Source: an uncultured Cytophaga sp.
Lineage (GTDB): Bacteria; Bacteroidota; Bacteroidia; Cytophagales; Cytophagaceae
DNA length: 64,000 nucleotides
NCBI RefSeq assembly: GCF_937863595.1
Contig: NZ_CALMGQ010000159.1
Coordinates: 1-64,000 of the forward strand
Direction: 5' to 3'
Shown: positions 13,232-37,179 of the stretch, piece by piece
Position numbering within the stretch: the stretch's first letter is position 1
Layout: each line of letters opens with the position of its first letter
The notes under the pieces: generated by a model
Told to the model about the DNA's origin: nothing
The model's database searches: none
What the model saw: the letters and a program-made list of their open reading frames with translations, nothing else
Translations under genes and position numbers: made by a program

Positions 13232-13248
13232 TTTGTTGAATATTTAAT

Positions 13249-14697
13249 TTATAATGATTGTAAGAATTTAAGGATTGCTGCACGGTCTAGTGCATTCATA
13301 TTAAGAAATGCATTTTTAGAAAATTCACCTTCCCCGCCATGCCAAATGATTGCTTCAGATATGCTGCGTGCTCTACCATCATGCAATAGGAAACTGCCCC
13401 CATTATTTACAGTATTAATCAAACCTAAACCCCACAAAGGAGGTGTTCGCCACTCGTTACCTGTTGCAAGAAAATCAGGCCTTCCATCTGCTAAACCACT
13501 GCCCATATCATGTAATAACAAATCCGTATAAGGTCGAATCTTTTGATTGCTTAAAGCAGGCACATCATGTGCACCTGTTTCAAAATAAGGTGTGTGGCAA
13601 CTTGCACATTTTGCTTGACGAAATAATTCTTTCCCTCGTAATACATCTTGGTCGTTCCAGTTTCTTCTTGCAGGTACTGCGAGTGTTTGACAATAAAATA
13701 CCAATTGATCAAAATCATTTACTTGTACTTCTGGATCTCCACCTGTTGGCCAAGTTCCATAATCGGTAATTTGTTGCCCTGTTAAATTTTGATTGGGAAA
13801 CAAGGTTGTTGTAAGGCCCATATCCCCGATAGATGCCCCAGCTACTTGTTGCAAAATGGTTGGTTGATTTGACTTCCAACCAAAACGTCCTAAATCAACT
13901 GTATTTGTTTTATAATTCCACACATAATTTGGTTTACCAGAAATGCCATCCCCATTTATATCCGAAGGATCTGCGTTCGCAAGGATGTCTGCAACAGAAA
14001 TTGCTTCAAGCAAACCTAGACCTGGTAATTGTTGTGCCAAGCGTGGGCTCGTCATTATACCTGCACTCAATTCTCCATAACCTAAGTCTACAAATGTATA
14101 TATGGGATCTCTTAATTCGTAGCTTATTCCATCTGCATATTTACCAGAAATAATGCTATAGGTTACATTCACCGTACCTTCAGGAATAGCAGTCATATCT
14201 GCACCTGCATAAATTGCATGATTGCTTAATTGATCGCCATATTGTGGATCGCCTAGTGGGCCGCCGTGTTCATTTTCACCAGGAATACTTAAGCGAAACA
14301 ACAAACCATTTAAATCATCTCCTGGGTTCATTGGTGGCAAACCTCTTCCATCTAATTTATGACAGCCCGAACACGATCTAGAATTAAAAAAAGGGCCGAT
14401 GCCATCTATTGCTGTAGTAGTAGCAGGTGCTACAACCCAATTGGTTTTAAAAACAGAATTACCTAATGAGAATTTATTTTTTTGGTATTGCGTCAAATTC
14501 TGGGCAGGGAAACCAAATGCATTCATCGTTGCATCAAAAATGGTTGTCGTTCCACCTGCATATTCTTCATCTACTTCCGCTTTATTACTAACAACGGTAT
14601 TGGGCACTGGTGCATCTGGATTGTGTCTACAAAATTGCATCGTTGTTATCGTCACAAATAAAATAATGGAGAGTATGAATCCAGACTTTTTTAACAT
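13249..14697 (-). CDS. Di-haem cytochrome c, thiol oxidoreductase-like (COG3488 type)
   Basis: A secreted protein of about 482 residues with two c-type haem motifs, SCSGCH (about residue 110) and CASCH (about 375). It has the layout of the predicted thiol oxidoreductase / di-haem peroxidase family that travels with imelysin genes. Family text such as GRGLPP and FRQAKCASCHTPYF is seen. I start at ATG 14697; an upstream TTG at 14709 is less likely. The N-terminus has a hydrophobic export signal ending in MQFC, so it could also be lipidated. It presumably does redox chemistry during iron capture with the flanking imelysins. Confidence 0.88.
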   Translation of the reverse strand: MLKKSGFILSIILFVTITTMQFCRHNPDAPVPNTVVSNKAEVDEEYAGGTTTIFDATMNAFGFPAQNLTQYQKNKFSLGNSVFKTNWVVAPATTTAIDGIGPFFNSRSCSGCHKLDGRGLPPMNPGDDLNGLLFRLSIPGENEHGGPLGDPQYGDQLSNHAIYAGADMTAIPEGTVNVTYSIISGKYADGISYELRDPIYTFVDLGYGELSAGIMTSPRLAQQLPGLGLLEAISVADILANADPSDINGDGISGKPNYVWNYKTNTVDLGRFGWKSNQPTILQQVAGASIGDMGLTTTLFPNQNLTGQQITDYGTWPTGGDPEVQVNDFDQLVFYCQTLAVPARRNWNDQDVLRGKELFRQAKCASCHTPYFETGAHDVPALSNQKIRPYTDLLLHDMGSGLADGRPDFLATGNEWRTPPLWGLGLINTVNNGGSFLLHDGRARSISEAIIWHGGEGEFSKNAFLNMNALDRAAILKFLQSL

Positions 14698-14738
14698 AAT
14701 TGTATTCAATGAGAAGATTTATAATTTCATTGTTTAAT

Positions 14739-14782
14739 AAGTTTGCCGTTATCTCACAAAACTGCGAAATAACGGCAAACTT
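14739..14782. terminator. Hairpin between first imelysin and di-haem gene
   Basis: Arms 14739-14752 and 14769-14782 (AAGTTTGCCGTTAT and complement) are perfect over 14 bases. It lies between two co-directional minus-strand genes, so it could lower expression of the two distal genes or end a separate transcript. Confidence 0.6.
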
Positions 14783-14839
14783 ACTATTAAATATTGTAGT
14801 AATATTGAATCTATCATCAACACGTATTACAATACTAAA

Positions 14840-16021
14840 TTAATTTATAATCATACCTAATTTTGCCCCAGCAGCCTTATATTCAGCAGCTTCATCATGT
14901 AAAGCATTTATCGCATTCTGAACACGAATTCTACCTGCTGCATTCGTACTTACAATTTCATTGTCAAATGGTGGATGAATTGCGTTCACAGCTATATCCG
15001 CATCATAAATTTTAGATAATACAAGATCATTTAAATTTTTATCCGTAGCCTTCACCAAATCAGATAAACTTGCTCCTTCTACAACAGAGCCATCAATACG
15101 AACATACGTTCCAATGTACACATTACGAATACCTTTTTGACCAAGAATAATATCGTTGTGTGTTTGATCACTAAAGCAAGATTGTTCATTTTCTTGTCTA
15201 CCTGCATCGTCCTCTGCGTCTAAGGCAACTTGCATACGTTCAACAGAAAGTTCACCATCCGTATAACGATACACACCTGTTAAAAAATTAGAAATTGCTT
15301 GATTCGGATTTGCAACAAACGATGCTCTGTAATTTTGCGCATTGGGTTTCCAATCGTTTTTTAAAGTATTTAAATTGTCGATTAATAAATCAATACACGC
15401 TAATAAGTAAGCAGCTCTTCTATCTTGATTGGATGCCGTACCACTGCCTCCAACGATGTAATCCGTATACGGTCTATCGCCAGGACCATCAACCGAAAGA
15501 TCTTGTCCCCACAATAAAAATTCAATTGCATGATAGCCACAACTTACACTTTCTTCACCTGCAGTTTGATTGTTGGCTTCGATGATATCTTTATTAATCG
15601 TTGGAAATGCCGTTGCATCATTTATAATTCCTGTATTTGCATTGGTTACGATGTAATCGATATACGATTCGTCTAAGGGCCAAGAATTTAATAATCCTTC
15701 CAAACCTCTTGCATCATCAATAGGACCGTTGTAAAAACGAAATGCTTCACTTTGAATGTATGGAGTTCGTGCTGCTAAATAGGCAGCGCGTGTATTTTCT
15801 AAACCACCTTGAGAGGGATTTGCAACAAAACTCTCTGCTGCTGTTTTTAGTTTATTAGCCGCTATCCATGAATCTTCGTAGGTAGCAAAAACCACATTTG
15901 AATAATTTTCAGCAACAAATGCTTGTGGGTTTGGTACAATGGCTGTATCGTTATTTCTGTCCTTACAAGAAATTTGAGTTAGTAAGGCTGCTGTAACAGC
16001 TAAAAGGTATATTTTTTTCAT
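14840..16021 (-). CDS. Imelysin-family iron-regulated lipoprotein (IrpA type)
   Basis: A protein of about 393 residues starting at ATG 16021, which gives a proper lipoprotein signal (MKKIYLL...TQISC); an in-frame ATG at 16042 would spoil it. The imelysin signature GYHAIEFLLWGQDLS is intact and carries the GxHxxE metal-binding motif. A second C-terminal block (QNAINALHDEAAEYKAAGAKLG) fits the paired four-helix fold. Members bind iron or act at the cell surface in iron uptake. It heads the three-gene iron locus and has a good candidate operator 44 bases upstream. Confidence 0.88.
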   Translation of the reverse strand: MKKIYLLAVTAALLTQISCKDRNNDTAIVPNPQAFVAENYSNVVFATYEDSWIAANKLKTAAESFVANPSQGGLENTRAAYLAARTPYIQSEAFRFYNGPIDDARGLEGLLNSWPLDESYIDYIVTNANTGIINDATAFPTINKDIIEANNQTAGEESVSCGYHAIEFLLWGQDLSVDGPGDRPYTDYIVGGSGTASNQDRRAAYLLACIDLLIDNLNTLKNDWKPNAQNYRASFVANPNQAISNFLTGVYRYTDGELSVERMQVALDAEDDAGRQENEQSCFSDQTHNDIILGQKGIRNVYIGTYVRIDGSVVEGASLSDLVKATDKNLNDLVLSKIYDADIAVNAIHPPFDNEIVSTNAAGRIRVQNAINALHDEAAEYKAAGAKLGMIIN

Positions 16022-16064
16022 TGGGAAGAATTGAATTTTCATTTCCCAAAACTAAGTATATTTA

Positions 16065-16081
16065 TTTAGACTTATTATAAA
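16065..16081 (-). promoter_or_regulatory. Candidate iron operator upstream of imelysin operon
   Basis: Read on the minus strand this is TTTAT-AATAAGT-CTAAA. It matches the TTTAG-N7-CTAAA palindrome of the haem locus at 9 of 10 fixed positions, and the site at 28406-28422 at nearly all of its 17 bases. It lies 44 bases before the imelysin ATG. Confidence 0.6.
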
Positions 16082-16141
16082 TAGATACAATTATTTTAAA
16101 AATAAATCACAAACAACTAATTATCAATTATTTAATACTAA

Positions 16142-17128
16142 TTATTTTTTATGCGATATTCCTTCGGCAATCATTCCACTTACAATCAATTGCAAGGCAT
16201 GATACAACATCAACGGTAAAAGTACTAGTCCCAACATCAATGGATCGGGAAATAAAGCCTTCCCCATTACAGCTCCTTGAACGAGGGATTTTTTGGAACC
16301 ACAAAACAATACAGCAATCCGATCTTCTCGATTTAATTTCAACGCAATGGAAAGTACATACATAATTCCGAACATGCTTAAAAACAATACCAGCATCGCA
16401 ACAGAAATTAAAAGGATCTCTGCTATTGAAAATCCGACAAACATATCCCCAGCTACGGATTCACAAAAAGAAGTAAACACAATTAACAATATGATCGTTT
16501 GATCAAATAAGCGTAGTGCATTTTTATAGCGTTCGGTGAAGCGACCCAACCAGTGATGCAACAACAATCCTGCGATGACAGGCATCAATACTTGAAAGCA
16601 CAACTTGATAATGACTGCTGTAGTATCCATATCGGCATGCATGTCGTCCATAAATAATGCCATCCAAAGCGGTGTTATAAACACGCCCAATATACTTGAT
16701 ATGCTAGCATTGAAAATGGCAGCTGTCATGTTCCCTCCTGCAATGGAAACCATTACGACAGAAGATGAAACGGTAGACGGCAAGGCAGCTACATAAAAAA
16801 CGCCCAGCCAGATTAAATCATCTCCCATGTTCCCAAAAAAAGTATGAACCAGAATAATTACCAGCGGAAATAAAAGGAAGGTGCTGGATTGTATCAAGAG
16901 ATGTAAGCGCCAATTGAATAATCCCGCCTTTAATTTCTCTGGACTTAATTTCAATCCATAAAAAAAGAAAATCACAGACACTCCATATTGAGCAATCTCA
17001 GAAAGCGGAAGCACACTATCGGCACTTCCCCAAGAAGGAAAATAAAAAGCCAACACAACAACAGCCACCAAACCAAAAAAGAAACCGTTAAGGCCAAACT
17101 TTGCAAGTATGTTCGTTGGTTTTGTCAT
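16142..17128 (-). CDS. SBF-like (bile acid:sodium symporter family) transporter
   Basis: A 328-residue membrane protein with about nine or ten helices of the SBF-like family (YfeH/RCH1 type). Recognisable parts are the FFYGLKLSPEKL loop after helix 2, VAALPSTVSSSVVMVSIAGGNMTAAIFNA in the middle and LFCGSKKSLVQGA near residue 270. It likely moves an organic anion or affects ion balance; the substrate is unknown. It is transcribed alone on the minus strand, 98 bases upstream of a palindromic element. Confidence 0.85.
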   Translation of the reverse strand: MTKPTNILAKFGLNGFFFGLVAVVVLAFYFPSWGSADSVLPLSEIAQYGVSVIFFFYGLKLSPEKLKAGLFNWRLHLLIQSSTFLLFPLVIILVHTFFGNMGDDLIWLGVFYVAALPSTVSSSVVMVSIAGGNMTAAIFNASISSILGVFITPLWMALFMDDMHADMDTTAVIIKLCFQVLMPVIAGLLLHHWLGRFTERYKNALRLFDQTIILLIVFTSFCESVAGDMFVGFSIAEILLISVAMLVLFLSMFGIMYVLSIALKLNREDRIAVLFCGSKKSLVQGAVMGKALFPDPLMLGLVLLPLMLYHALQLIVSGMIAEGISHKK

Positions 17129-17234
17129 GAATGGAATTGGTTGTTGATTTATTTAGAGTTTTTCTTTCATCTGATATCATGGTCTGTATTCACCATAGTC
17201 GTCAAACCAAGAAAATTGTAGATACCAATAACAG

Positions 17235-17409
17235 GTGGTTGGTAGTTTACGCAAAAGAACAATTTCGCATTATCTATAATACTGCTGCGTAAACGTACCG
17301 AACGGCATGTTTTGGTTCTACTGAAAATAAGCCGTAAGGTTCGGTACGTTTAAGTGTTTGTTCTTTATGTTTAACCTCTACTAATTATTACACTTAAATT
17401 ACCAACCAC
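17235..17409. repeat. Palindromic intergenic element with nested hairpin
   Basis: Outer arms GTGGTTGGTA (17235-17244) and TACCAACCAC (17400-17409) are complementary. Inside, a perfect 14-bp hairpin pairs 17290-17303 with 17339-17352. The structure sits in the gap between the SBF transporter and rlmF, with no coding content. Confidence 0.7.
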
Positions 17410-17501
17410 TAGAGTATGAAATGCAAATCACTCAAGTTGACGGTTATTCTGTTACTCAAAGACAAGAGTGTAGTGACACACAGAAAACGGATTAGGAAAT
17501 A

Positions 17502-18506
17502 CTAAATACCAACTTCTTCAACATTCTTCCACCTTTCATTCCGCCATATTGCTTGGGCTTCTTTGGAATGAAAAGTCCACGCTACCAATCGACTTGATTT
17601 ATTACCTTGCCCCATCGGGATTGTGCGCACATCAAAGGGTGCTAACAATTCTAGCTGGGCATAAAACTTCTCCAGATTTGCTTGTTTTGAAACCAAGGTT
17701 GAAAACCATAAAACTGAAGTAGAAAACTTTTTGCTTTCTCGAATCATATTGCGAATGAAATTCAATTCGCCACCATCGCACCACAACTCATTTTTTTGTC
17801 CTCCGAAATTCAATTCTGTTTTTGTAACTTTTTCACTTTTGAGATTGCTTAATTTACGCAAGGTTCCTTCGGCTGCAGCTTCAGCAGATACATGAAACGG
17901 CGGATTACAAATCGTAAGGTCAAACTTCTCTCCTTCAGCTATCACACCAAAGAATATATCTTCGGGATGCTTCTGTAAACGTAATGTTACATGATCTTTG
18001 AGAACGTCATTTGCTTCTACAATATGTTTTGCTGAAGCAATTGAAATTGGGTCGATATCCGAACCCACAAAACTCCAACCATATTCTTTAACGCCTATAA
18101 TAGGATACACACAATTGGCACCTACTCCAATATCCAAGCATCGAACATGAGCACCTTTGGGTATGGTCTGTTTAAAACTCGTGCCCAATAATTCTGCTAT
18201 ATGGTGTATGTAATCTGCCCTACCTGGTATTGGCGGACATAAATATCCTTCGGGGATACTCCACTCTGTGATGTCGTAGTAGTGTTTCAACAAAGCATTA
18301 TTCAAACAGGTAACAGCAGCGGGATTAAAAAAATCAATCGATTCATCCCCATAAATATTCGTTGTTACATATTGCGCCAATTCGGGTAAGGAAGAAATCA
18401 ATACAGGAAAATCATAGCGCTCCCGATGTTTATTATTGGGGTGCATTTGATGTTTCACTGTGGGATGCTCTTTTTTCTTATTTTTATTATTCTTCTTATC
18501 GGACAT
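17502..18506 (-). CDS. rlmF: 23S rRNA (adenine1618-N6)-methyltransferase
   Basis: A 334-residue SAM methyltransferase that modifies A1618 of 23S rRNA. The N-terminus is basic (KKNNKNKKKEHP), followed by HPNNKHRERYDFPVL, typical of RlmF. The SAM site is CLDIGVGANCVYP at about 128, and the N6-adenine catalytic motif NPPFH is at about 208. It is monocistronic. Confidence 0.92.
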   Translation of the reverse strand: MSDKKNNKNKKKEHPTVKHQMHPNNKHRERYDFPVLISSLPELAQYVTTNIYGDESIDFFNPAAVTCLNNALLKHYYDITEWSIPEGYLCPPIPGRADYIHHIAELLGTSFKQTIPKGAHVRCLDIGVGANCVYPIIGVKEYGWSFVGSDIDPISIASAKHIVEANDVLKDHVTLRLQKHPEDIFFGVIAEGEKFDLTICNPPFHVSAEAAAEGTLRKLSNLKSEKVTKTELNFGGQKNELWCDGGELNFIRNMIRESKKFSTSVLWFSTLVSKQANLEKFYAQLELLAPFDVRTIPMGQGNKSSRLVAWTFHSKEAQAIWRNERWKNVEEVGI

Positions 18507-18740
18507 GGCACTATACTTAATGTTCGCGTTTCAATCATAATTTATCAAACAACGCTTTGGAACAATAAAGATACTAAAAATAAGCTACTCTGAACAAGGG
18601 CTCTATACTACAAAGTATTTCGTTCGTTAAAAGACCTATTTAATTTCAGTTTTCCAATAAAGAACACAGAAAATGTGGTTACAATAACATGCACAGATGT
18701 TTTTAATCGTTTTTTTACGAATCAAATCCCATAAAAAAGA

Positions 18741-18770
18741 ACCGCTCTTCTTATTTCTAAAAAGAGCGGT
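18741..18770 (-). terminator. Terminator of the haem operon
   Basis: A 9-bp stem (18741-18749 with 18762-18770, ACCGCTCTT) lies just past the hmuS stop. On the minus strand it is followed by a U-rich run (TTCTTTTTTA), as expected for intrinsic termination. Confidence 0.8.
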
Positions 18771-18797
18771 CCAGACAATTAAACAATTAAAAAATAA

Positions 18798-19835
18798 CTA
18801 AATAGTTTTCACTAATTCGCGCCACGCGTTTAATTCTGGTTTACCTGGCTTACGGAAACCAAAAAACTGAACAACCATTTCGCGGTCTTTGTTAAAGCAT
18901 TCGATCGAAGTAACATCCCCATCGTTGGTTGGTTTTCGTACTACCCACGTATCAGTAATTTCATCCATATTTAAATGCATGTTAAAATCAGGATCTAAGA
19001 CATTCAACCAGTTGTCCATTACTTTAACAGAATTTATTACGTCTTGGTGTATTTGAATATTGCCTTTACTTCCAGCAAATATCATAATCTGCATTTTATC
19101 ATTCAGTGCAGATTCTAACAAACCAACCAGTTTTGATTTATCCGATTTGCGTGTAAATGTTTTATCCGCAATTTCGAGTGCACGTAAGCGGTTCAATTTG
19201 AATTTGCGTAACATAATAAAAAAATCATGTGTATCTTCAAGGCCCGCCCAAGCTGCAATGAAAGCAGCTTCATCAATATGTTCTTCAAACGTTGGAGCAA
19301 TATCGGGCGTAATTTCAAGTTCAGTAGATTGATCTGCTGCACGGTAATTATCAACAAGTGTTTGATACGCTTCGAGGTTACCACCATCTTCCAAAACATA
19401 TATCTTTGTAACAGCAACACCTGCTGCATCAAAGAATTGAATATTTTTCATCGTACCACGAGGTGATTTAACTTCAGCAGCAAATGCGAATTTCCAGAAG
19501 TTAAAGAATGCACGTGCTTCAATCGTACCAATCAATGTGCCTACTTTATGTGCTTTGCCTTGAACATCAATCTTGTCAAAAGTTCCTTTGTGTTCTAATA
19601 CACAACCATCATTTCGAGTAAGTGACATTACACGACCTAAGCTTGGTAATTCTTTATACAATTCAGAGAAATCACCTTCTAATTTAATTACTCCTGAGCC
19701 AACTTCTGTAGCTAACAATTCTGCTTCACTAACACCAAGTACTTTTGCGGCATCACGAATACGTTTCTTTGGAAATTCAACTTTAAATTGATTCCAGCGT
19801 TCTGCTAACGCGATTTGATTTGTTGTTGTTATCAT
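18798..19835 (-). CDS. hmuS: Haemin-degrading / haem-trafficking factor
   Basis: This 345-residue cytoplasmic protein of the HemS/HmuS/ChuS family receives haem from the ABC importer and passes on or degrades it. Two internally similar halves are seen, each ending in an FF/FW-rich strand (ARAFFNFWKFAFAAEV near 113 and MVVQFFGFRKPGKPEL near 325). The N-terminal RIRDAAKVLGVSEAELLAT block is typical. It is last in the operon and its 5' end overlaps hmuV by 53 bases. Confidence 0.9.
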   Translation of the reverse strand: MITTTNQIALAERWNQFKVEFPKKRIRDAAKVLGVSEAELLATEVGSGVIKLEGDFSELYKELPSLGRVMSLTRNDGCVLEHKGTFDKIDVQGKAHKVGTLIGTIEARAFFNFWKFAFAAEVKSPRGTMKNIQFFDAAGVAVTKIYVLEDGGNLEAYQTLVDNYRAADQSTELEITPDIAPTFEEHIDEAAFIAAWAGLEDTHDFFIMLRKFKLNRLRALEIADKTFTRKSDKSKLVGLLESALNDKMQIMIFAGSKGNIQIHQDVINSVKVMDNWLNVLDPDFNMHLNMDEITDTWVVRKPTNDGDVTSIECFNKDREMVVQFFGFRKPGKPELNAWRELVKTI

Positions 19836-20664
19836 TATATTTAGGATTAATTGTTTGATTCATTTTAAATGAACTTGAATCTGGTATAATTAATAATTGA
19901 CCAGAAACAGGATCGTTTATAAGATGTATATCTAAGCCATATACACGCTTTATACGTTCCTTTGTGAAAACTTCTTCTGCTTTACCATAAGCCTCCACAA
20001 AGCCCTTATTTAATAACAATACCTTATCGGCATATTGGGATATTAAATTCAAATCGTGCAATACCGCAATTACACAGTAACCAGCTTTAGCCATACGAGT
20101 TGCGGTTTGCAAAACAACTTGTTGATGATATAAATCTAAACTTGAAACGGGTTCGTCAAGGAAAAGATATTTAACAATGCCATCTTCATTTTTATCAATT
20201 TTCCAGATCTGTGCTAATACACGTGCCAATTGAACACGTTGTTGCTCCCCTCCAGACAATGTTGAATACACCCGTTTTGCTAAGCCTACAATATCCATTG
20301 CATTCAACACTTCGTTCACAATCATCGTGTCTTCTGGATTGGGATGTTCTTTAAAATATGGATACCGTCCCATCATTACAATTTCTTCTACTTGAAAAGG
20401 TAAACCTGTTGCAAAGGATTGAGAAAGCACCGCGCGAATTTTAGAAAGTTCTTTAACATCTTGATAGTATAAATCAGACCCATTCAAGCAAACACAACCC
20501 GTATCAAGATTTGTTTTTTCAGAGAGTGCTCTCAACAAAGTCGATTTACCCGCTCCATTCGGACCAGCAATAACGAGTAACTCACCTGCATGAGCATGCA
20601 GAGATATACCATTCAACAATGTTTTAGTACCTACAGATAGTGTTATATGAATTGCATCTACCAT
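19783..20664 (-). CDS. hmuV: Haem ABC transporter ATP-binding protein
   Basis: A 293-residue ATPase with Walker A GPNGAGKST (about 34), signature LSGGEQQRVQLAR (about 137), Walker B YLFLDEP (about 166) and switch HDLN (about 203). The GRYPYF segment fits the FecE/HmuV branch. The chain runs about 35 residues beyond the usual end (Asn/Lys-rich), and this extension is what overlaps hmuS. It shares one base with the hmuU stop. Confidence 0.92.
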   Translation of the reverse strand: MVDAIHITLSVGTKTLLNGISLHAHAGELLVIAGPNGAGKSTLLRALSEKTNLDTGCVCLNGSDLYYQDVKELSKIRAVLSQSFATGLPFQVEEIVMMGRYPYFKEHPNPEDTMIVNEVLNAMDIVGLAKRVYSTLSGGEQQRVQLARVLAQIWKIDKNEDGIVKYLFLDEPVSSLDLYHQQVVLQTATRMAKAGYCVIAVLHDLNLISQYADKVLLLNKGFVEAYGKAEEVFTKERIKRVYGLDIHLINDPVSGQLLIIPDSSSFKMNQTINPKYNDNNNKSNRVSRTLESI

Positions 20665-21734
20665 TATATAAACTGACTTTCTTTTTTATGTTTTAACAAA
20701 ATCCAAGCAAATACAGGAGTACCAATCAATGCAGTAATCACTCCGATCGGCAACTCGGCAGGTGCTACAAGTATACGAGCTAATAAATCTGAGCCTGTTA
20801 AAAGTAAGGCACCCGCTAAAGAAGAACCTATCAGAATATACCGTTGATTAAATCCGCCCAACATGCGCAATACATGTGGCACAACCAAACCTACAAACCC
20901 AATCATACCAGCAACAGCAACAGCAGAACCTACAGCCATAGTAGATAAAATGATAATTTGTATTTTCAATCGATCTACCGATACGCCTAAATAAATAGCT
21001 TCTTTTTCGCCCAGAGAAATGGTATTTAACGCTTTTGACAATCGTGGCAACAACACAATCGGTATTAAAATAAAAGGAAGTATGGTGATTACAGTATTCC
21101 AACTGGCACCACCCAAACTGCCTAAAGACCAAAATGTAATATTTCGCAACTCTGCATCTGTAGCATAATACGTAACCAAACCTATAAAAGAACCGCACAA
21201 GGCGTTAATCGCAATTCCTCCCAACAACATTGTTGTAACATTTGTCTTTCCATTTGTTCTAGAGACTTTAAATACAAGAAAAGATGTTAAACAGGAACCT
21301 AAAAATGTTACGACATTTAAGGTATAATAACCTACCATACCTTCAATCAAATAATAATACGGAGTAGCTGAAAGGGTAGATAAAAAAACAATGGTAAGGA
21401 CTGCACTTAAAGATGCGCCTGCAGAAATGCCGATTAAACCTGGATCTGCTAATGGATTTCTGAATAAGCCCTGCAAGGCAGCACCAGACAAAGCCAATCC
21501 TGCACCGATTAACAAACCAAGCAATACACGTGGTAAACGAATGATCCAAAAAACATTATATTGGCCTTCATCAAATGCTACAAGGTTATAAATACCAATC
21601 TTATGTAACACAATAGATATAACTTGCGAAGGAGAAATATACAATGCACCATTCCCTGCTGATAGCAACATGAAAGCTACTAACAGGAACGCAAGTGCAA
21701 TAAGAATAATACGCTGTTTAGATGTAATTACCAT
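20664..21734 (-). CDS. hmuU: Haem ABC transporter permease
   Basis: A 356-residue FecCD-type permease with about ten membrane helices. Family text is clear: RLPRVLLGLLIGAGLALSGAALQGLFRNPLADPGLIGISAGA near 70-110, and GMIGFVGLVVPHVLRMLGG near 280. It forms the inner-membrane channel with HmuV. It starts 7 bases after hmuT ends. Confidence 0.92.
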   Translation of the reverse strand: MVITSKQRIILIALAFLLVAFMLLSAGNGALYISPSQVISIVLHKIGIYNLVAFDEGQYNVFWIIRLPRVLLGLLIGAGLALSGAALQGLFRNPLADPGLIGISAGASLSAVLTIVFLSTLSATPYYYLIEGMVGYYTLNVVTFLGSCLTSFLVFKVSRTNGKTNVTTMLLGGIAINALCGSFIGLVTYYATDAELRNITFWSLGSLGGASWNTVITILPFILIPIVLLPRLSKALNTISLGEKEAIYLGVSVDRLKIQIIILSTMAVGSAVAVAGMIGFVGLVVPHVLRMLGGFNQRYILIGSSLAGALLLTGSDLLARILVAPAELPIGVITALIGTPVFAWILLKHKKESQFI

Positions 21735-21741
21735 AATGAGA

Positions 21742-22614
21742 TTATTGCAATTTTGAAGAAAGTTCGATCATTGCTTTTCCTAAGCGCGGACCAAATCCAG
21801 TTAATAATTGTCCATCCATGCTAATTACTTTTTTATTTTTACCAGCAGTTGTTTGTGCAATTCCTTGAACTTTTAACAATCCATCGACGCCACCAATACT
21901 TTCCAAACCGCTATCGAATAATAAAATCACATCTGGATTTGCAGCAATCAAAGCTTCGGATGTTAAAGGCTTAAAATCTGCAAATGAAGTAACTGCATTT
22001 TGTCCGCCAGAAAGTTCAATCACCTTTTCAACAGAAGTACCTGTTCCAGAAACCATCATACTACCTGCGCCACGTGCATATATAAATAATACTTTCTTTT
22101 TAACTTTAGGTTTTTTTACCAGCGCAATATCTTTATCAAGTTGTGCAATCAATTCGGATGCTTTTGCAGATTGTTTAAAATACACGCCTGCTTCACTAAT
22201 TAATTTCTTCGTTCCTTCAACAGAAAGTTCTTGTTTAAATAAATAGGTTTTAATGTTTGATGCCGTTAATTGTTCTATTAAAGTTGATTTCAAATCATTT
22301 TGCATACCTACAACTAAGTTTGGAGATAGCGCTATAATACCTTCTGAAGAAACAGAACGATTGTGGCCAATTTTAACTACTTTTTCTAAGGATGCTGGGT
22401 ATGAACTCGTAACATCAACACCAACCAAAGAGCTTTCCAAACCTAAGGCACAGATAATTTCACTCATAGTACCATTGACAGAAACAATTTTCATTTCTGA
22501 TGATGAATCCGATTTCATCCATGTAGCACTTAGGGTAAGCAAACTGAATGTGATGGGAATAATCAATACATACGCAATGGATGCAATAATTTTTTTAATT
22601 GAGGTATAAGGCAT
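21742..22614 (-). CDS. hmuT: Haem ABC transporter periplasmic binding protein
   Basis: This protein of about 290 residues belongs to the class III binding-protein fold (BtuF/HmuT) and delivers haem to HmuU. An N-terminal hydrophobic signal or anchor precedes the first lobe (IVSVNGTMSEIICALG); ALSPNLVVG marks the end of the first subdomain and ANPDVILLFDSGLESIGG the second lobe. The start is ATG 22614; the frame is open to a TTG at 22623. Its start overlaps the end of the preceding small gene by 20 bases. Confidence 0.9.
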   Translation of the reverse strand: MPYTSIKKIIASIAYVLIIPITFSLLTLSATWMKSDSSSEMKIVSVNGTMSEIICALGLESSLVGVDVTSSYPASLEKVVKIGHNRSVSSEGIIALSPNLVVGMQNDLKSTLIEQLTASNIKTYLFKQELSVEGTKKLISEAGVYFKQSAKASELIAQLDKDIALVKKPKVKKKVLFIYARGAGSMMVSGTGTSVEKVIELSGGQNAVTSFADFKPLTSEALIAANPDVILLFDSGLESIGGVDGLLKVQGIAQTTAGKNKKVISMDGQLLTGFGPRLGKAMIELSSKLQ

Positions 22615-22933
22615 ATCGATCAAATAGGTTAAGTTTAAAATCAGCTTGTTTAAGTAGTATTTGAATTTCTAATATTTCTTTCTTAGTAAAAGAATAAAAC
22701 AAGGCATTCCATTCCGTTCGAATATGTATTCTTTTCTCAAATGGAAAGTCCTTGAAAAATGCTTTAGGATTAAGATTGAAAACATTTTTACTAAATTTAT
22801 TGAAATATTTTTTACACATAGATTGTGTTATATTTTTATAACAGAATACAACTTTTTCTGCACACGAATCACAGGTATATATTTTACCATTTGGAGATTC
22901 ACACAATATATTAATGGAACAAAATTCACTCAT
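22595..22933 (-). CDS. Small cysteine-rich protein in the haem operon
   Basis: A 112-residue cytoplasmic protein. The N-terminal half is a small Cys cluster (FCSINILC, then TCDSCAEKVVFC) that could hold zinc or a redox pair; the C-terminal half is helical. It may belong to a Bacteroidota family of unknown function (DUF6686-like, from memory and uncertain). It lies in the middle of the hmu operon, 5 bases after the VOC gene and overlapping hmuT, so a role in haem uptake or sensing is reasonable but unproved. Confidence 0.65.
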   Translation of the reverse strand: MSEFCSINILCESPNGKIYTCDSCAEKVVFCYKNITQSMCKKYFNKFSKNVFNLNPKAFFKDFPFEKRIHIRTEWNALFYSFTKKEILEIQILLKQADFKLNLFDRYALYLN

Positions 22934-22938
22934 CTAAT

Positions 22939-23298
22939 TTAAAGACTTTCGTTAAATACTAATTTATTCCCAAATGGATCTGTTACCTCCATCGTTAAAG
23001 CATTCCAGAGAGTATGTTCTATTGTTGGTTTATAAAACAAATAATTTTTATCTACTAATTCTGCATGAAATTCTTTTAAAAAAGAAAATTCAATAAATAC
23101 CTTAGCACCAGGACTGCAATCTCCATGATGTTCTGTTAAATGTATTTTAACAGAATCACTCGATATCTGAATATATCTAGGCATTCCGGGAGCATCTACA
23201 TGCTCCCAGTCTATATTAAATTCCAACCAATTTATATAGAAGTCGAATGCCTTCTGATAATCAAAGATGCGTATTACTGGAATCGCAAAATGTTTCAC
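22939..23298 (-). CDS. Glyoxalase/bleomycin-resistance (VOC) fold protein
   Basis: A 119-residue single-domain VOC protein. The layout is the same as the bleomycin-resistance-like branch: IPVIRIFDYQKAFDFYINWLEF at the start, HLTEHHGDCSPG in the middle and EVTDPFGNKLVF at the end. His and Glu in these blocks could form a metal site. The start is GTG 23298. Its place inside the haem operon, between a HmuY protein and the importer, is unexpected. A haem-related binding or stress role is inference. Confidence 0.8.
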   Translation of the reverse strand: MKHFAIPVIRIFDYQKAFDFYINWLEFNIDWEHVDAPGMPRYIQISSDSVKIHLTEHHGDCSPGAKVFIEFSFLKEFHAELVDKNYLFYKPTIEHTLWNALTMEVTDPFGNKLVFNESL

Positions 23299-23314
23299 GT
23301 TTTAAAGAAATAGT

Positions 23315-24655
23315 CTATTTAACAATTAATTTTTGTTGATAGAGCTTACCCTCCGACTCTAGAATTACTACATAAATTCCTTGAACAAGATTTAAATTAG
23401 TCAGTTGCATCGTTGAGTTATTAATTGCAGCAGCATAAACTTCATTGCCTATCAAATCCATAATTTTAAGACTACCTGTATCTACATCTGAATCGATCGT
23501 TAATTCAGCAGATGAAGAAGAAATTGGATTTGGATACATTGAAATAACTTTTGATGAAGTTGTTAAAACAGATGTAGGTATTTCAGGCAAGGCGACATTT
23601 TCAGTGAATGCATATCTGAAGGTCAAATATTTGCCTACACCCGTATAGGCTGGACCTGTTGTGGGTACATCCGAAGGAGCCCCTTGATAATAATTTAATA
23701 TTTGCAGTTTTACATATTTACTATCCTGTACTTTCAAAAGAATTATTTTATCAGCAATTGGTAAAACAGTATGCGGACCGCTAAAATCTGAACCAGGGTA
23801 ATAAGTATACCAGCTACCAGAACCACTAATACTATTCAATGTATAACCAGTGGTAGGTGCTTCAATTATAGATTCAAATGTAGATGGTGTAAGGTATTGA
23901 GCTGCAACAGTGCCTGGACCTTTCGTACCTCCATTAAACAATACTGTTGTTCCACTGAAAGCAATATCCCATTTTAAAGAATTTGAATCTGCTGCCGCAA
24001 CCTCTTCCCCAGTAGCAAAACTAAAGAAGGTATACTTACCTGTGCCTTTATCTGATCCTAAATCTGAAACAGTATATGTATCATTGAATGCATCTGTAAC
24101 ATCAGACAATATATATTTAAATGTATAATATTTAGCAACACCATCATATGCGGGACCAGTAGTAGGTACTTCTGATGGAGCACCTTGATAGTAATTCAAT
24201 ATTTGAAGTTTTACATAGCTTCCATTCTCCAATTTTACAAGAATGATCTTATCCGAAATAGGGATAATTGTATGCGGTCCACTATTTCCTACTCCTGGAT
24301 TGTAATCATACCAACTGCCATTACCACTAAGACTATTCAATGTATAATCCGAAGTAGGTGCCTCTGAAATAGCCTCAAATGTAGAAGGTGTAATGTATTG
24401 AGCCGCAACGGTGCTTGGCCCCTTCGTACCACCATTAAACAAAATTGTTGTACCGCTGAAGGCAATATCCCATTTGTTAGAATTTGAATCTGCTGCAGCA
24501 ACTTCTTCGCCTGTAGAAAAACTAAAGAAGGTAAATAATTTTGTTCCTTTATTTGCAGCTAAGTCTGATATGGTTGTGGTCGTGCTGAATGTTTGTCCGT
24601 AAGATGCATATATAGACAATACGAACACGAATAATGTATGTAGTTGTTTTTTCAT
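23315..24655 (-). CDS. Tandem HmuY-domain protein with T9SS sorting tail
   Basis: This 446-residue secreted protein starts at ATG 24655 with a signal peptide ending in SYG. An open frame extends 44 codons further upstream but runs into the preceding gene. Two HmuY-like domains of about 170 residues follow each other and are very similar (shared GEEVAAADSNS, KWDIAFSGTT, NGGTKGP, VKLQILNYYQGAPS). A His in the SGPHT segment is present in both. The last 70 residues form a type IX secretion tail (YPNP, then QGIYVVILESEGK..QQKLIVK). HmuY proteins bind haem and hand it to the HmuR receptor; here two copies are exported or attached to the surface by T9SS. Confidence 0.88.
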   Translation of the reverse strand: MKKQLHTLFVFVLSIYASYGQTFSTTTTISDLAANKGTKLFTFFSFSTGEEVAAADSNSNKWDIAFSGTTILFNGGTKGPSTVAAQYITPSTFEAISEAPTSDYTLNSLSGNGSWYDYNPGVGNSGPHTIIPISDKIILVKLENGSYVKLQILNYYQGAPSEVPTTGPAYDGVAKYYTFKYILSDVTDAFNDTYTVSDLGSDKGTGKYTFFSFATGEEVAAADSNSLKWDIAFSGTTVLFNGGTKGPGTVAAQYLTPSTFESIIEAPTTGYTLNSISGSGSWYTYYPGSDFSGPHTVLPIADKIILLKVQDSKYVKLQILNYYQGAPSDVPTTGPAYTGVGKYLTFRYAFTENVALPEIPTSVLTTSSKVISMYPNPISSSSAELTIDSDVDTGSLKIMDLIGNEVYAAAINNSTMQLTNLNLVQGIYVVILESEGKLYQQKLIVK

Positions 24656-24698
24656 GATTTGAATTATAGAAAATTTGATAGATTGATTGATAGATAAA

Positions 24699-25304
24699 TT
24701 AAAATTGTCTTGTACCGTTACTTTGATACACATATCTAAATGTATAATATCTAGAAACATCTGTATTAACAGGTGCTGCAGGAGCATTTTGATAATAATT
24801 CAATATTTCCATTTTAGCATAGGTATTATCATTTGTACGTATTACAATAGCCCTACCAGGAATAGCCGAAATAACGTGTGTTGTTGAATTGTAATTATAC
24901 CAACCGTTTGCAGAACCTGTTGAAATGGCATAAGCAGATGTAGCATCTTGGATATAACCAGTTGAAGGAGCTGTTGTTAAATTTTCAAAAAGTCCCGTAT
25001 ACAACTGAACTCCTACGGTACCAGGACCGCTTGAACCGCTATTGGTAATAATGGTTGTTGCATTGAATGCGATATCCCATTTTGTAGTTGCAGAATCTGT
25101 AAAGGGTACAACAACATTGTTTTTCAAACTGAAGAAGGTAAAATGTCCATTACCACCCGTTTCAGGATTCGCTGCTAAGTTACGCACAACAAGTGCTGTA
25201 CTTGTGCTTGCTGGGACTGGAGCATCTTCCTTTTTATCTTTACAGGAATAAGAAAGAATTGCAACACATGCAATTAAAATGTTCGTATATATTTTTGTAG
25301 ACAT
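24699..25304 (-). CDS. hmuY: HmuY-like haem-binding lipoprotein
   Basis: A 201-residue lipoprotein with lipobox SYSC at about 21 and one HmuY domain. The shared blocks with the next gene are FTFFSLKNN, TKWDIAFNATTI, SGSSGPGTV and KMEILNYYQNAP. It begins 2 bases after the receptor stop, the classical hmuR-hmuY pair of Bacteroidota (known best from Porphyromonas). It probably sits on the outer membrane surface and passes haem to the receptor. Confidence 0.88.
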   Translation of the reverse strand: MSTKIYTNILIACVAILSYSCKDKKEDAPVPASTSTALVVRNLAANPETGGNGHFTFFSLKNNVVVPFTDSATTKWDIAFNATTIITNSGSSGPGTVGVQLYTGLFENLTTAPSTGYIQDATSAYAISTGSANGWYNYNSTTHVISAIPGRAIVIRTNDNTYAKMEILNYYQNAPAAPVNTDVSRYYTFRYVYQSNGTRQF

Positions 25305-25306
25305 AA

Positions 25307-27652
25307 TTATTTTTTATTTATTTTTAATTGAAGGGACGTATAATACAATCGCCCTGGAATAGAAGAAATGTATTGAGGGTTTTTATAATTAAAGACATTA
25401 TCCATACCTACTTGTAAGGTAAACCAGGATGTAATTGTTTTTCCAACAGACATATTTGCCAACCAATATCCCTTTACGTATTCATTATCTACATCTAAAA
25501 TCAAGTTGCCATTCATATCACCAAATCCATATCGACCTCTATAAATGGCACGTATAGAAGCACTCCAACCCGTATTTTTATTTAAATAAAATAATTTAAA
25601 ATTCGCCATGTGCTTGGATCTATTAAATAACCCGCCATATTCTTTTTCTGAAATAATAGAAGTAACATAGGTAATAGGATCACGCGCATAATATTGCCCT
25701 TCTGCAATATCTTTAACAACTTCTTTATTTTTTGCTATCAAATATTGATAGCCTGCACTTATAGAAAAATGCTTATGAAACTGATATGCTAAATTTGTTT
25801 CAACACCTTGCGTAAATACTTTGGAAACATTATAATAAGTATACACCGATTGCCCGTTGGTTTTCATTGCAATGGCAGATGTTTCAATCATATCATTTAT
25901 ATCATTTCTGAAAACATTCAATTGCCAATTCATTTTTTTAGAGAAGTCAACATTCCAACCCACGTTTATAGCTACAGAACGCTCTGCAGTGATAGGTTTT
26001 AAAGTAGTTGGATCAATGAATGTTTGAGCAATCAAACCTTGTTGTTCCAACTGGGTGTATTGTGCCAAGACCTCCTCCGACCCAAATACACTATAACCTG
26101 CAACAGGATTTGTGAAATTGAGATATAGCTGGCGAAAGTCTGGGGCTTTAAAACCTTTTCCGACTGAAGCGCGGAATGTAATTTTTTTCGTAGCATTGTA
26201 TTTAATAGATAACTTCGGACTCAATTGTTTTCCATACACACTGTGCACATCGTACCTAAATCCTGCAATAATATTAATCTTCGATAGTGGTTTCCAATCG
26301 TGTTGTACATAATAAAATGTACTATTGAATCTTTTTTTATCGGTATAACGCGTTGCACTTACAGATTCGAAGGTTACACCCGCGCCAAGTATGGTTTCAT
26401 TTTTTTTATTCCAAGTTTTAGATCCAATCAACTCCGGTCGATTAAACGTTTGATTGAAATAACTATCATCGTACAAACTACCATCCGCAATATTTGTCAT
26501 AACAGCACTCGTATGATAAAAGGTGGAATACATTTTTAATAAAAGGCGTGTATTTGAATTAAGTGAATAAGAAATTTGAGGTAATAGATTCCAATCATAT
26601 TGATTCCCTACTTGATTGATCTTATAATCAATCCCATTTTCTGAAAAAGAAATATTTGAATTCTGATCTTCGAAAAAACCACGTGCAAATAGCGATGCCT
26701 TCAGCCTTGGGTTAAAACGATACGCTACTTTTTGTTGCAGTGTATAATTGTGATATGCAGGGACTGTTTTATCTTCCGTATCTGGAACTAAATCATAACC
26801 TGAAGTTGAATATCTATTGGCAAATGCAGAGTAACTAAACTTCTTTGTGCGAAAAAAACCATCCAATGAAACATCACTCGTATTATTTGTACCGTAGCGT
26901 GTACGAAGTCCAACACCGGCTTTTTCTGTTGGCTCTTGTGTAATTATGTTGATGACACCTGCTAAAGCTTCGCTTCCATATAAACTAGAAGAAGGGCCTT
27001 TAACAATTTCAATTTGTTTGATATTACCAACAGTCATTCTAGATAAATCAAAAGTTCCAGCTGTTCTGCCTATTAATGGAGCACCATCAATCATAATCAT
27101 GGTATACTCTGGATTGAAACCTTGCAATTGAATTCCCGTTCCGTGATCGTTAATAATAGCCAAACCCGTTTGCTCTTGTAATACTTCACTTAGGCGCATA
27201 GAACCCATTTGCTTTATTTGGCTTTCTGTAATAATCGTAACCGGTATGGGAGAATCTTGAATACTTTTTTCTGTTTGCGTTCCTGTAACAACAATTTCAG
27301 GTTGATCTGATTTGGCTTGCGTATGTAAAACTATTTCATGAACTTGATCTGAATGCACATCCACCAATTGCTCTACTGTTTCAAACCCTAGTTGAGCAAA
27401 GACCACCGTATATTTTCCAGGCTTAACAGCATGTATGCAGAATATGCCTTTTGAATCGCAATTAGTTCCCATTGATGTTCCCTTCAAATAAACCAAAGCA
27501 AACTCGACAGGTTGTGAACTATCCGAAACAATTTTACCTTTAATGATTCCGTTTTGAGCAAATGCTGAAATGGAACTAAATAAGGCAATGATTAAAATGA
27601 TATGTATAAATAGCTTTTTGATAATCTTATTATTTAGATTGATTCTAAACAA
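25307..27652 (-). CDS. hmuR: TonB-dependent haem receptor
   Basis: A 781-residue outer-membrane receptor. Order of parts: signal peptide to about residue 32 (AFAQ), carboxypeptidase-regulatory-like domain (about 34-115), plug (about 125-235, with the VLQEQTGLAI and MIDGAPLIGR blocks), then a 22-strand barrel ending in LQLKINKK. No ATG precedes the signal peptide in this frame; TTG at 27652 is the only usual start codon between the upstream stop and the signal peptide. It heads the nine-gene haem operon, which continues with gaps of 2-43 bases or overlaps to hmuS. Confidence 0.88.
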   Translation of the reverse strand: MFRINLNNKIIKKLFIHIILIIALFSSISAFAQNGIIKGKIVSDSSQPVEFALVYLKGTSMGTNCDSKGIFCIHAVKPGKYTVVFAQLGFETVEQLVDVHSDQVHEIVLHTQAKSDQPEIVVTGTQTEKSIQDSPIPVTIITESQIKQMGSMRLSEVLQEQTGLAIINDHGTGIQLQGFNPEYTMIMIDGAPLIGRTAGTFDLSRMTVGNIKQIEIVKGPSSSLYGSEALAGVINIITQEPTEKAGVGLRTRYGTNNTSDVSLDGFFRTKKFSYSAFANRYSTSGYDLVPDTEDKTVPAYHNYTLQQKVAYRFNPRLKASLFARGFFEDQNSNISFSENGIDYKINQVGNQYDWNLLPQISYSLNSNTRLLLKMYSTFYHTSAVMTNIADGSLYDDSYFNQTFNRPELIGSKTWNKKNETILGAGVTFESVSATRYTDKKRFNSTFYYVQHDWKPLSKINIIAGFRYDVHSVYGKQLSPKLSIKYNATKKITFRASVGKGFKAPDFRQLYLNFTNPVAGYSVFGSEEVLAQYTQLEQQGLIAQTFIDPTTLKPITAERSVAINVGWNVDFSKKMNWQLNVFRNDINDMIETSAIAMKTNGQSVYTYYNVSKVFTQGVETNLAYQFHKHFSISAGYQYLIAKNKEVVKDIAEGQYYARDPITYVTSIISEKEYGGLFNRSKHMANFKLFYLNKNTGWSASIRAIYRGRYGFGDMNGNLILDVDNEYVKGYWLANMSVGKTITSWFTLQVGMDNVFNYKNPQYISSIPGRLYYTSLQLKINKK
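27633..27649 (-). promoter_or_regulatory. Iron-type operator overlapping start of haem receptor
   Basis: The palindrome TTTAG-N7-CTAAA is perfect in its fixed bases. It begins 5 bases downstream of a TAnnTTTG box and covers codons 2-7 of the receptor frame. A repressor here would block promoter clearance for the whole operon. Confidence 0.7.
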
Positions 27653-27654
27653 TA

Positions 27655-27662
27655 CAAAAGTA
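27655..27662 (-). promoter_or_regulatory. Promoter -7 box TACTTTTG of the haem operon
   Basis: On the minus strand TACTTTTG fits the Bacteroidota -7 consensus TAnnTTTG. A TTG lies 20 bases further upstream, fitting the -33 element. Transcription would start within a few bases of the TTG start codon of the receptor, so the message is nearly leaderless. Confidence 0.7.
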
Positions 27663-27751
27663 GATTCTTAAATTGAAGGCTGCAATACTTAAAAAAGTGG
27701 GTTTTTGTATACCAAAAAAACAGTAGTACACTACCCTAATTAACTGAATAA

Positions 27752-28390
27752 TTAAGAACGAGAAACAATTTTATTATCTAAAGCCCAAATTATCAAATCT
27801 GTAGACTTTTTAACACCTGCTTTTTTCATAATATTTCTACGGTGCGTAGCGATCGTCTTTTCACTAATAAATAAAATATCTGCTATTTGTTCGTTTGACC
27901 TTCCTTTACAGATGTAGCGTAAAACTTCTAATTCCCTGTCGGAAAAGCTAAAATCTGAAGTGGCATTATTTAAAAGTCCTTTTAATAAAAGTTGCGTAAT
28001 ATCCCCCACAAAATATTCTTTGTTATTATGTACTTGCTGTATAGCATATAACAACTCTTCTTTTAAAACATTTTTTCTTAAAAACCCTGTTACTCCAGCC
28101 CGAACAGCCATAACTAAGGGTAATTCACAGTCACAGTCTGAAATAATTAGAAATTTTAACCTTGGATGTTTGAGCTTTAAATCTTGAATAAGATCACGAA
28201 CGGGTTCTTTACATAAATTCAATTCAAAAATAAGCACATTTGGATTAGAAGAATCAATATTATTATGCAAATGAACCAAATCGCTCGATTCTCCAACAAT
28301 TTGAATGTGCTCCGCCCCCGCTAATGTTCCTTTAACACCCTCTCTAATAAGATAATGCTCGTCTGCTATAAATACTTTTATATTATCCAT
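27752..28390 (-). CDS. NarL/LuxR-type response regulator with Glu at the phospho-site
   Basis: A 212-residue regulator: receiver domain (about 1-122) and LuxR-type HTH (about 145-208; FSFSDRELEVLRYICKGRSNEQIA, then ISEKTIATHRRNIMKKAGV). In the receiver the acidic pair is AD-E (10-11), the switch Lys is in LRKN, but the phospho-acceptor position reads LIFELNL, so Glu-56 replaces Asp. It may be permanently active or controlled without phosphorylation. No histidine kinase is adjacent. Its promoter carries the same operator as the haem operon that follows it, so iron-linked expression is likely. Confidence 0.85.
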   Translation of the reverse strand: MDNIKVFIADEHYLIREGVKGTLAGAEHIQIVGESSDLVHLHNNIDSSNPNVLIFELNLCKEPVRDLIQDLKLKHPRLKFLIISDCDCELPLVMAVRAGVTGFLRKNVLKEELLYAIQQVHNNKEYFVGDITQLLLKGLLNNATSDFSFSDRELEVLRYICKGRSNEQIADILFISEKTIATHRRNIMKKAGVKKSTDLIIWALDNKIVSRS

Positions 28391-28405
28391 ACTACATTCA
28401 TACTA

Positions 28406-28422
28406 TTTAGAATTAGTCTAAA
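28406..28422 (-). promoter_or_regulatory. Iron-type operator at response regulator promoter
   Basis: Perfect TTTAG-N7-CTAAA, extended to ATTTAG...CTAAAT. It begins 3 bases downstream of the TACATTTG promoter box on the minus strand, the same geometry as at the haem receptor. Confidence 0.7.
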
Positions 28423-28425
28423 TGG

Positions 28426-28433
28426 CAAATGTA
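28426..28433 (-). promoter_or_regulatory. Promoter -7 box TACATTTG of the response regulator
   Basis: TACATTTG on the minus strand matches TAnnTTTG and lies 36 bases before the ATG. No well-placed TTG was found for the -33 element; a T-rich run lies closer than usual. Confidence 0.55.
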
Positions 28434-28449
28434 GCATATATTAAGCAAA

Positions 28450-28492
28450 AATCCTTGCACTATTTAGAACTAGACTAAATAATACAAGGATT
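28450..28492. promoter_or_regulatory. Second operator nested in a hairpin
   Basis: A second perfect TTTAG-N7-CTAAA (28463-28479) is framed by further complementary arms AATCCTTG (28450-28457) and CAAGGATT (28485-28492). It lies just past the siderophore operon stop codon and upstream of the response regulator promoter. It could serve as a distal operator, a terminator, or both. Confidence 0.6.
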
Positions 28493-28518: not shown

Positions 28519-30342
28519 TTAACAAGAAGAGACTCTGTTTTCGGCTGCAGGATTTGTAAGCACGCCACAAATTTCTGGAACTGGAATTGATGCTTCTTCC
28601 GAGTATCCATAGGTTAATAATCGAACCCGATTAATACAAACCCGAATAAATTCAGGAACAAATAAATCGAATTGTTCGTAGCGATCTTTTAATTCGGGAT
28701 GTTGTTTTTGATACCCATCTATAACTTCGGCAACATTTTTCCAAAATACTTTTTCGTCTAAGCCCACATAACTATGGAACACATTTGATAAATACCTAAA
28801 TACTCCATCAAACACACCCGATAAAATAAATAGTGTAGCATATTCATCATCAATATCTCGTAAAATATGTTGGGCTTCTTTTGGAGCTTCTTTTTTCCCA
28901 TCTTGTGTCAGAACAATTTCTTCTACAAAATCTTTAATGATAATGCGAACGGGAACATAATCCTGAATTACCAAAATTGTATTCTCACCATGGGGACTGA
29001 AGAAAAATTTATGCTGATAGAAAATATGAAGTATCGGCGTTAAGTATGCGTTCAAATAGCTCTTCAACCAATGTTCAGCAGTTAAGCCCGACTTACGTAT
29101 CATTTCGGCTGTAAACGATTTTCCGTTTTCATCCACATACAGCAACGATGCCATGGTCATGATGCGTTCGCCTTCATTCAAATAGTTTGAAGCACTCTCT
29201 CTCCAAATTGCACCCAATAATTCTTTGTAATGATACGGACCATTTTCAACTTGTTCGTAATGTTTATGCTTATAGCCAATTGTTGCTACTTCACCTAGCA
29301 ATGTAAATCCAAGTCGTTTCAGAAAAGGATCTGTCATTAACTTACTTTTTACCCAGGTTGTTATAAAAGGTGCAATTGAAAGTTTCGCCGGGGATAATCC
29401 GCGGTATACAGATGTATTTAAAATTGAGATTGCCGTTTTAACATACATTTTTTCTGGTTTGTCAATATTGAAAAATGTTCGAATTGACTGTTGCGGCGCA
29501 TAGCTATCATTCCCTTTTCCAAGCGGTATGATGTATTGATTGGCAATATCGCCTGCAAATAAAAATGTCAATTTATGTTTCCATTGCCATTCGTGCACAG
29601 GTAAAAATAAATAATCATTCGGATCCACTTCATGCGAAAAAAGTACGGCATTAAACGCATCCTGCAGATCAATGCCCAATTCCTCTTGCATCAAACGTGG
29701 GTAATCGTACTCACAAGTATGTGCATATAATGCCTTGTTTTTGTGAACACCCAACCAAAATAAGCTTGTCATCTTACTCGCTTCGGGTACAAAATCTAAA
29801 TAATCTTCATAGCTAAAACCAATACGTCCCTTATTAACTGTAGCCCAGGGATGTCCATCCATTTGGTGTTCAATAACCGTGTACGTAGCATCAATTAAAA
29901 GATGTGCATCAATCCTGCCTTGTGCTAAAATAAATGCATCGGCGTATAAGGTATTATATGTTTCTTCAATAAATTTTGATAGTGTTAATGGTTTTACACC
30001 AAGTGTTTCCTTCATATCTAAAAAGAATTGAATAACATCTACCTTAGATTCCGGCTTATCATTTACATATTTAACAACCGAACTGGGATCAAGATGCCAA
30101 TAATCCATCGCGCGGTACTCTCCAGAAAATGTATAATAAACAGTAGGGCTATCTGTCGCCAATTGAAAATTTACACGTGCTGTTTCTGTTTTAGTTCGTA
30201 CAGGTTGGATCAAACATTCATGTAAAAATTCGGAAAATACTTTTGTAATATGTTTGCGGTTGACCCGATTCCAGACATCTTTTTTAAGGTGTTTAATACC
30301 TGTCTGAATATCATGACCAATTAAATTATCGGAATGATTCAT
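28519..30342 (-). CDS. NIS siderophore synthetase, AlcC/DesD (type C) like
   Basis: A 607-residue IucA/IucC-family enzyme that adenylates a carboxylate and forms amide bonds with a hydroxamate amine. It has the type C text: GHPWATVNKGRIGF (about 165), PVHEWQWKHKL (about 248), QQSIRTFFN (about 283), YVKTAISILNTSVYRGLSP and SPHGENTILVIQD (about 443), then CINRVRL near the end. AlcC and DesD work on N-acyl-N-hydroxy diamines. It is the last gene of the minus-strand siderophore operon and overlaps the MFS gene by 17 bases. Confidence 0.9.
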   Translation of the reverse strand: MNHSDNLIGHDIQTGIKHLKKDVWNRVNRKHITKVFSEFLHECLIQPVRTKTETARVNFQLATDSPTVYYTFSGEYRAMDYWHLDPSSVVKYVNDKPESKVDVIQFFLDMKETLGVKPLTLSKFIEETYNTLYADAFILAQGRIDAHLLIDATYTVIEHQMDGHPWATVNKGRIGFSYEDYLDFVPEASKMTSLFWLGVHKNKALYAHTCEYDYPRLMQEELGIDLQDAFNAVLFSHEVDPNDYLFLPVHEWQWKHKLTFLFAGDIANQYIIPLGKGNDSYAPQQSIRTFFNIDKPEKMYVKTAISILNTSVYRGLSPAKLSIAPFITTWVKSKLMTDPFLKRLGFTLLGEVATIGYKHKHYEQVENGPYHYKELLGAIWRESASNYLNEGERIMTMASLLYVDENGKSFTAEMIRKSGLTAEHWLKSYLNAYLTPILHIFYQHKFFFSPHGENTILVIQDYVPVRIIIKDFVEEIVLTQDGKKEAPKEAQHILRDIDDEYATLFILSGVFDGVFRYLSNVFHSYVGLDEKVFWKNVAEVIDGYQKQHPELKDRYEQFDLFVPEFIRVCINRVRLLTYGYSEEASIPVPEICGVLTNPAAENRVSSC

Positions 30343-31492: not shown

Positions 31493-31653
31493 TCATAATT
31501 CGTTACATTCTTACACGTAATTGGTCGAAAAGACACAAACACGGAGCAAAAACGGTTCATTACTTCTTTTTTAATAACATGCATGTGGTTTGCAAAAAAG
31601 GCACAACGATGGTCACTTGAAATAATAATTAATAATAGGAGACGGTTCATCAA

Positions 31654-32988: not shown

Positions 32989-32989
32989 G

Positions 32990-36923: not shown

Positions 36924-36951
36924 ACAATTTTCCTCTAGTGTGAGTATGTGA

Positions 36952-36959
36952 CAAAAGTA
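36952..36959 (-). promoter_or_regulatory. Promoter -7 box TACTTTTG of the siderophore operon
   Basis: Minus-strand TACTTTTG with a TTG 18 bases upstream fits the Bacteroidota promoter. It lies 28 bases before the chosen ATG and so fixes the start of the decarboxylase gene. No perfect TTTAG-N7-CTAAA lies next to it, so control may be mainly through the AraC protein. Confidence 0.65.
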
Positions 36960-37113
36960 TGCTGAAAACAGCCGTTGCAATGTGCATTTCGGGAAAAATT
37001 ATGTTCCATTCCGAATTTTGAATTATTAAAATAATACAATTTTAAAATATAGAAAAATAAACTAATTTAACTATTTCAAGAACATATTACTGTTATTTAT
37101 AATTAAATAGGCA

Positions 37114-37121
37114 TAATTTTG
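37114..37121 (+). promoter_or_regulatory. Promoter -7 box TAATTTTG of the AraC gene
   Basis: TAATTTTG matches TAnnTTTG, 58 bases before the ATG. Downstream, at 37144-37160, TTTAG-ACTAATT-AAAAT shares its first 12 bases exactly with the 28406 operator read on the minus strand, but its right half is degenerate. Confidence 0.5.
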
Positions 37122-37179
37122 ATTATTTCAATAATTAAATTAATTTAGACTAATTAAAATTAACTACAATAAATTCAAA

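Follow-up and report, generated by a model that had tools for sequence, protein, structure and literature searches.

A putative Fur box at iron-related promoters of Cytophaga and its one-base difference in spacing from sites before DtxR-family genes

In the window, the 64-kb stretch of DNA analyzed here, the palindrome TTTAG-N7-CTAAA recurs beside a haem uptake operon, a response-regulator gene, and an imelysin operon. Which protein reads it, and how far beyond these genes does its regulon reach? A pattern search of the window recovered three perfect copies (27633–27649, 28406–28422, and 28463–28479) and one 9/10 copy (16065–16081), at the positions given in a preliminary description of this DNA. 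The same description had put the number of perfect matches arising by chance at well under one; window shuffles set the expectation at 0.20 against the three observed, with at least three found in 0 of 100 shuffles. Sites with one mismatch number nine against 6.1 expected, which is not significant, so that only cross-genome comparison speaks for the 9/10 copy at the imelysin operon. Window shuffles and conservation together led us to reject a chance origin for the palindromes.

The palindrome and its promoter context

The comparison covered the genome of this window (G000) and its relatives G001, G002, G013, G018, and the more distant G009; G000, G001, and G002 represent three Cytophaga species, with G001 the closest relative as judged by its response regulator (77% identity). 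Comparison of orthologous promoters refines the motif to TTTAGAATNATTCTAAA, which occurs, as such or in close variants, at the same places at the response-regulator and haem promoters of G001, G002, G013, and G018 (the haem-type site of G002 standing at hmuY). Five genomes keep the box at the response-regulator promoter, and four of these keep it at the haem promoter too. This consensus is identical to the putative 19-bp Fur box of Riemerella anatipestifer, 5'-ATTTAGAATTATTCTAAAT-3', found no more than about 100 bp from the start codons of hmuR and other iron genes; purified Fur shifts promoters carrying that box, hmuR among them, in EMSA (PMC5609570). The four window copies differ from the consensus by one to three mismatches, and a matrix trained on other genomes only places them, in the order 28405, 27632, 16064, and 28462, at ranks 1–4 in the window, where four sites score at least 16 against 0.09 expected. 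We therefore regard the palindromes as very probable, though putative, operators of Fur in Cytophaga species. Against this reading, a second Riemerella study, which reports Mn2+-dependent Fur binding to TonB-receptor promoters, cites the classical Fur box instead (PMC7976709).

The best matrix score in the window belongs to the box at the response-regulator promoter (28405–28423, ATTTAGAATTAGTCTAAAT), which begins 3 nt downstream of TACATTTG; the corresponding promoters of G001 and G002 carry a perfect TTTAGAATTATTCTAAA. The haem operon box (27632–27650, ATTTAGATTGATTCTAAAC, rank 2) lies 5 nt downstream of TACTTTTG; its position and geometry are matched in G001, G013, and G018. The preliminary description had noted a TAnnTTTG box 3–5 bases before two of the copies, and these two spacings bear it out. 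The rank 3 box (16064–16082, ATTTAGACTTATTATAAAT) precedes the imelysin operon, with its imelysin, di-haem oxidoreductase, and imelysin genes (12089–16042, minus strand); it recurs at the same place in G002 and, in a weaker form with three mismatches, in G001. Boxes overlap the haem, imelysin, feoAB, and sufB promoters, lying 0–9 nt past TAnnTTTG at haem, feoAB, and sufB. We also scored the half-conserved copy that had been noted at 37144–37160 before an AraC gene; the site is there (37143–37161), as a weak and uncertain box of rank 6 in the window (score 12.8, with 0.92 sites expected at scores of at least 12).

The haem operon runs on the minus strand from a TonB-dependent receptor gene (25307–27652) through genes for two HmuY-like proteins, a glyoxalase-like protein, DUF6686, a periplasmic binding protein, a FecCD permease, an ABC ATPase, and HemS/ChuX (18798–25304). 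No ATG precedes the signal peptide in the receptor frame; a candidate TTG start abuts the Fur box, in G001 as well, and the haem transcript may therefore be nearly leaderless.

The second box upstream of the response regulator

The fourth-ranked copy (28462–28480, score 17.5) is a weaker Fur-box-like palindrome, 57 bp upstream of the promoter-proximal response-regulator box and nested in a terminator hairpin. It makes up the loop and the inner part of the stem of an 18-bp hairpin that has a T tail on the minus strand (28450–28492); this hairpin has the features of an intrinsic terminator and follows a siderophore operon (28519–36980, minus strand: PLP decarboxylase, IucA/IucC-GNAT, lysine/ornithine monooxygenase, MFS exporter, and IucA/IucC). 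An AraC-family regulator gene (37180–38187, plus strand) is divergent from this operon. The block of siderophore, AraC, TonB-receptor, and PepSY genes (28519–42971) separates dbpA from the response regulator in the window; G001 lacks it there.

The copy might thus be a terminator stem with no operator role, a reading to which we give somewhat less than an even chance. It fits the 18-bp stem with its T tail (shuffle z-score −7.3) and the inner bases of the copy, which deviate from the Fur consensus (score 17.5); yet a box persists at this distance in G001 and G002. G001 has a palindrome 58 bp from the response-regulator box, enclosed in another hairpin (23 bp) that follows dbpA. G002 also keeps one at 58 bp; its neighbor there is a divergent nucleotidyl-transferase gene, and the fold contains no long terminator hairpin. 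A box at 57–58 bp is thus shared by three Cytophaga species, each with a different gene upstream, which makes an operator role probable as well. On the simplest reading, the 28463 copy is probably a second, conserved operator, and terminators arose around it.

Candidate regulators and half-site spacing

Two Fur-family genes are encoded in G000. One (C133), whose product is closest to Fur, stands between a spoT/relA homologue and purA; Flavobacterium psychrophilum has a single Fur homolog, likewise with purA downstream. The product of the other is closest to PerR. The genome also gives three DtxR-family hits.

The preliminary description had judged the symmetric TTTAG/CTAAA form to resemble DtxR/MntR-type boxes more than a Fur box, and near-identical half-sites do stand before genes of that family (e.g. 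TTTAGG-CTAT-CCTAAA before mntR, and TTTAGGCTATCCTAAA in G000), at N6 spacing. Perfect N6 sites precede 9 of the 13 DtxR-family genes in the family set; 27 DtxR loci sampled across the order contain 21 perfect N6 sites, none at N7, and 0–1 at every other spacing, and no DtxR-family site across the order reaches a Fur-matrix score of 12. Of the iron-gene sites examined in the family, nearly all match best at N7, and feoA loci across the order, with one mismatch allowed, peak at N7 (20, against 4–14 at other spacings). The window sites do not match, in motif and spacing together, those before the genome's own DtxR-family genes (N7 against N6), and on spacing we reject a DtxR/MntR-family repressor as their binder, leaving this suggestion a very small probability. 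It was nonetheless a near miss: the consensus is the EMSA-tested Riemerella Fur box (PMC5609570), but the DtxR/MntR genes have the same half-sites, at N6. From the position of the N6 sites alone, DtxR/MntR proteins would be their binders. Elsewhere, a perfect TTTAG-N6-CTAAA lies ahead of ispG (gcpE) in each of the three Cytophaga genomes (L166:2076, L171:2133, and L172:2089), and a gene for a Mn/Zn-type ABC transporter substrate-binding protein (L095:2373-3210) lies downstream of an mntR-like gene.

Fur-family boxes resemble each other. That the palindromes are operators of the PerR-like protein, responding to peroxide rather than iron, is nevertheless highly improbable: its gene adjoins a peroxiredoxin gene and its product could read a similar box, but the box sits at genes for iron and haem uptake, and in Riemerella it is Fur that binds it (PMC5609570).

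Fur thus remains the preferred binder, and the Fur encoded in the spoT/relA-fur-purA order would be both binder and repressor in this genome. With sufficient iron, Fe2+-Fur would occupy the 19-bp box, which overlaps the transcription start just past the Bacteroidota -7 box, and would bar RNA polymerase from the haem, response-regulator, and imelysin promoters; iron shortage would free them of Fur. The upstream response-regulator box, 57–58 bp away, would be a probable second Fur site that also became part of a terminator. The Fur regulon proposed here is an ordinary switch.

Extent of the regulon and relation to known systems

The genome-wide scans were pattern searches only. The whole genome (3.97 Mb) holds nine perfect TTTAG-N7-CTAAA copies, three of them in the window; the cores of the other six are all non-consensus and four of the six lie within long open frames, and we consequently rejected the plain palindrome as a genome-wide marker. 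A consensus search allowing two mismatches gave 18, 17, and 17 sites in G000, G001, and G002, against 12, 5, and 6 for a reversed control; the small excess in G000 counts against the Fur reading. These searches place the box at feoAB promoters in all three Cytophaga species, at the sufB promoter in G000, and, in G002, at the promoters of an unlinked hmuY and of the imelysin operon. A further two-mismatch site, flanked by an AraC gene and a TonB receptor gene (L064 of G000), lies 7 nt past a TAnnTTTG box. Across the order, feoA loci yield 13 sites scoring at least 16 against 0.2 in shuffles, and 18 scoring at least 12 against 0.6; hmuY loci reveal less, probably because other genes often come before HmuY. 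Of the 'local iron regulon' first described, the shared iron-gene operator with fixed promoter geometry holds and 'local' does not, as further boxes outside the window stand before feoAB and sufB and at a TonB receptor; the predicted regulon is genome-wide.

The response regulator of the window (27752–28390, minus strand) is of the LuxR/NarL type (Pfam Response_reg and GerE). By alignment it has Glu at the phospho-Asp position, as do its counterparts in G001, G002, G013, and G018; G009 has Asp. The haem promoter is directly preceded by 17-bp repeats (ACCANTTTTTNAGTATT-like), whose proximal copies are 24 bp apart in G000, G001, G013, and G018; in the window they are the two direct repeats CCACTTTTTTAAGTATT and ACTGTTTTTTTGGTATA (27684–27724, minus strand), a candidate activator site. 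A repeat matrix trained without G000 ranks these two second and fourth, and hmuY of G002 has one strong copy upstream. The tandem repeats may be sites of the Glu response regulator.

Taken together, these observations suggest a two-part proposal, for which we consider the chances evenly balanced: that in the Cytophagales, Fur and an unrelated DtxR/MntR-type protein read the same TTTAG/CTAAA pentamers, while a single base pair of spacing (N7 against N6), along with the inner bases, keeps the two apart; and that in Cytophaga, Fur controls an atypical Glu response regulator that may activate the adjacent haem operon via the tandem repeats, making a feed-forward loop. In the literature we found nothing direct on a Bacteroidota MntR site, a Cytophaga Fur regulon, or a comparison of Bacteroidota DtxR and Fur regulons, and the one-base relation between Fur and MntR sites may be new. 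Near-identical probable operators one base apart would offer a clean natural case for how metalloregulators avoid cross-binding. The flavobacterial Fur box is here extended to the Cytophagales with promoter-level detail, and the motif can be used to predict iron regulons in a large group with few tested Fur sites.

The closest known system is the Fur box of R. anatipestifer, which has the same 19-bp consensus (PMC5609570); Cytophaga belongs to a different order, the Cytophagales, its gene set differs in including the response regulator and imelysin genes, and the case here is made from sequence. DtxR/MntR-type operators share the TTTAG/CTAAA half-sites, found here before DtxR-family genes, but combine N6 with an R-N4-Y core where the Fur sites have N7 with AAT-N-ATT. 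The classical Fur box of E. coli can be read as a 7-1-7 repeat, TGATAAT-N-ATTATCA. Like the box described here (TTAGAAT-N-ATTCTAA), the classical form (GATAATGATAATCATTATC, in E. coli and others) is an odd-centered inverted repeat; its outer half-site is TGATA, whereas that of Cytophaga is TTTAG.
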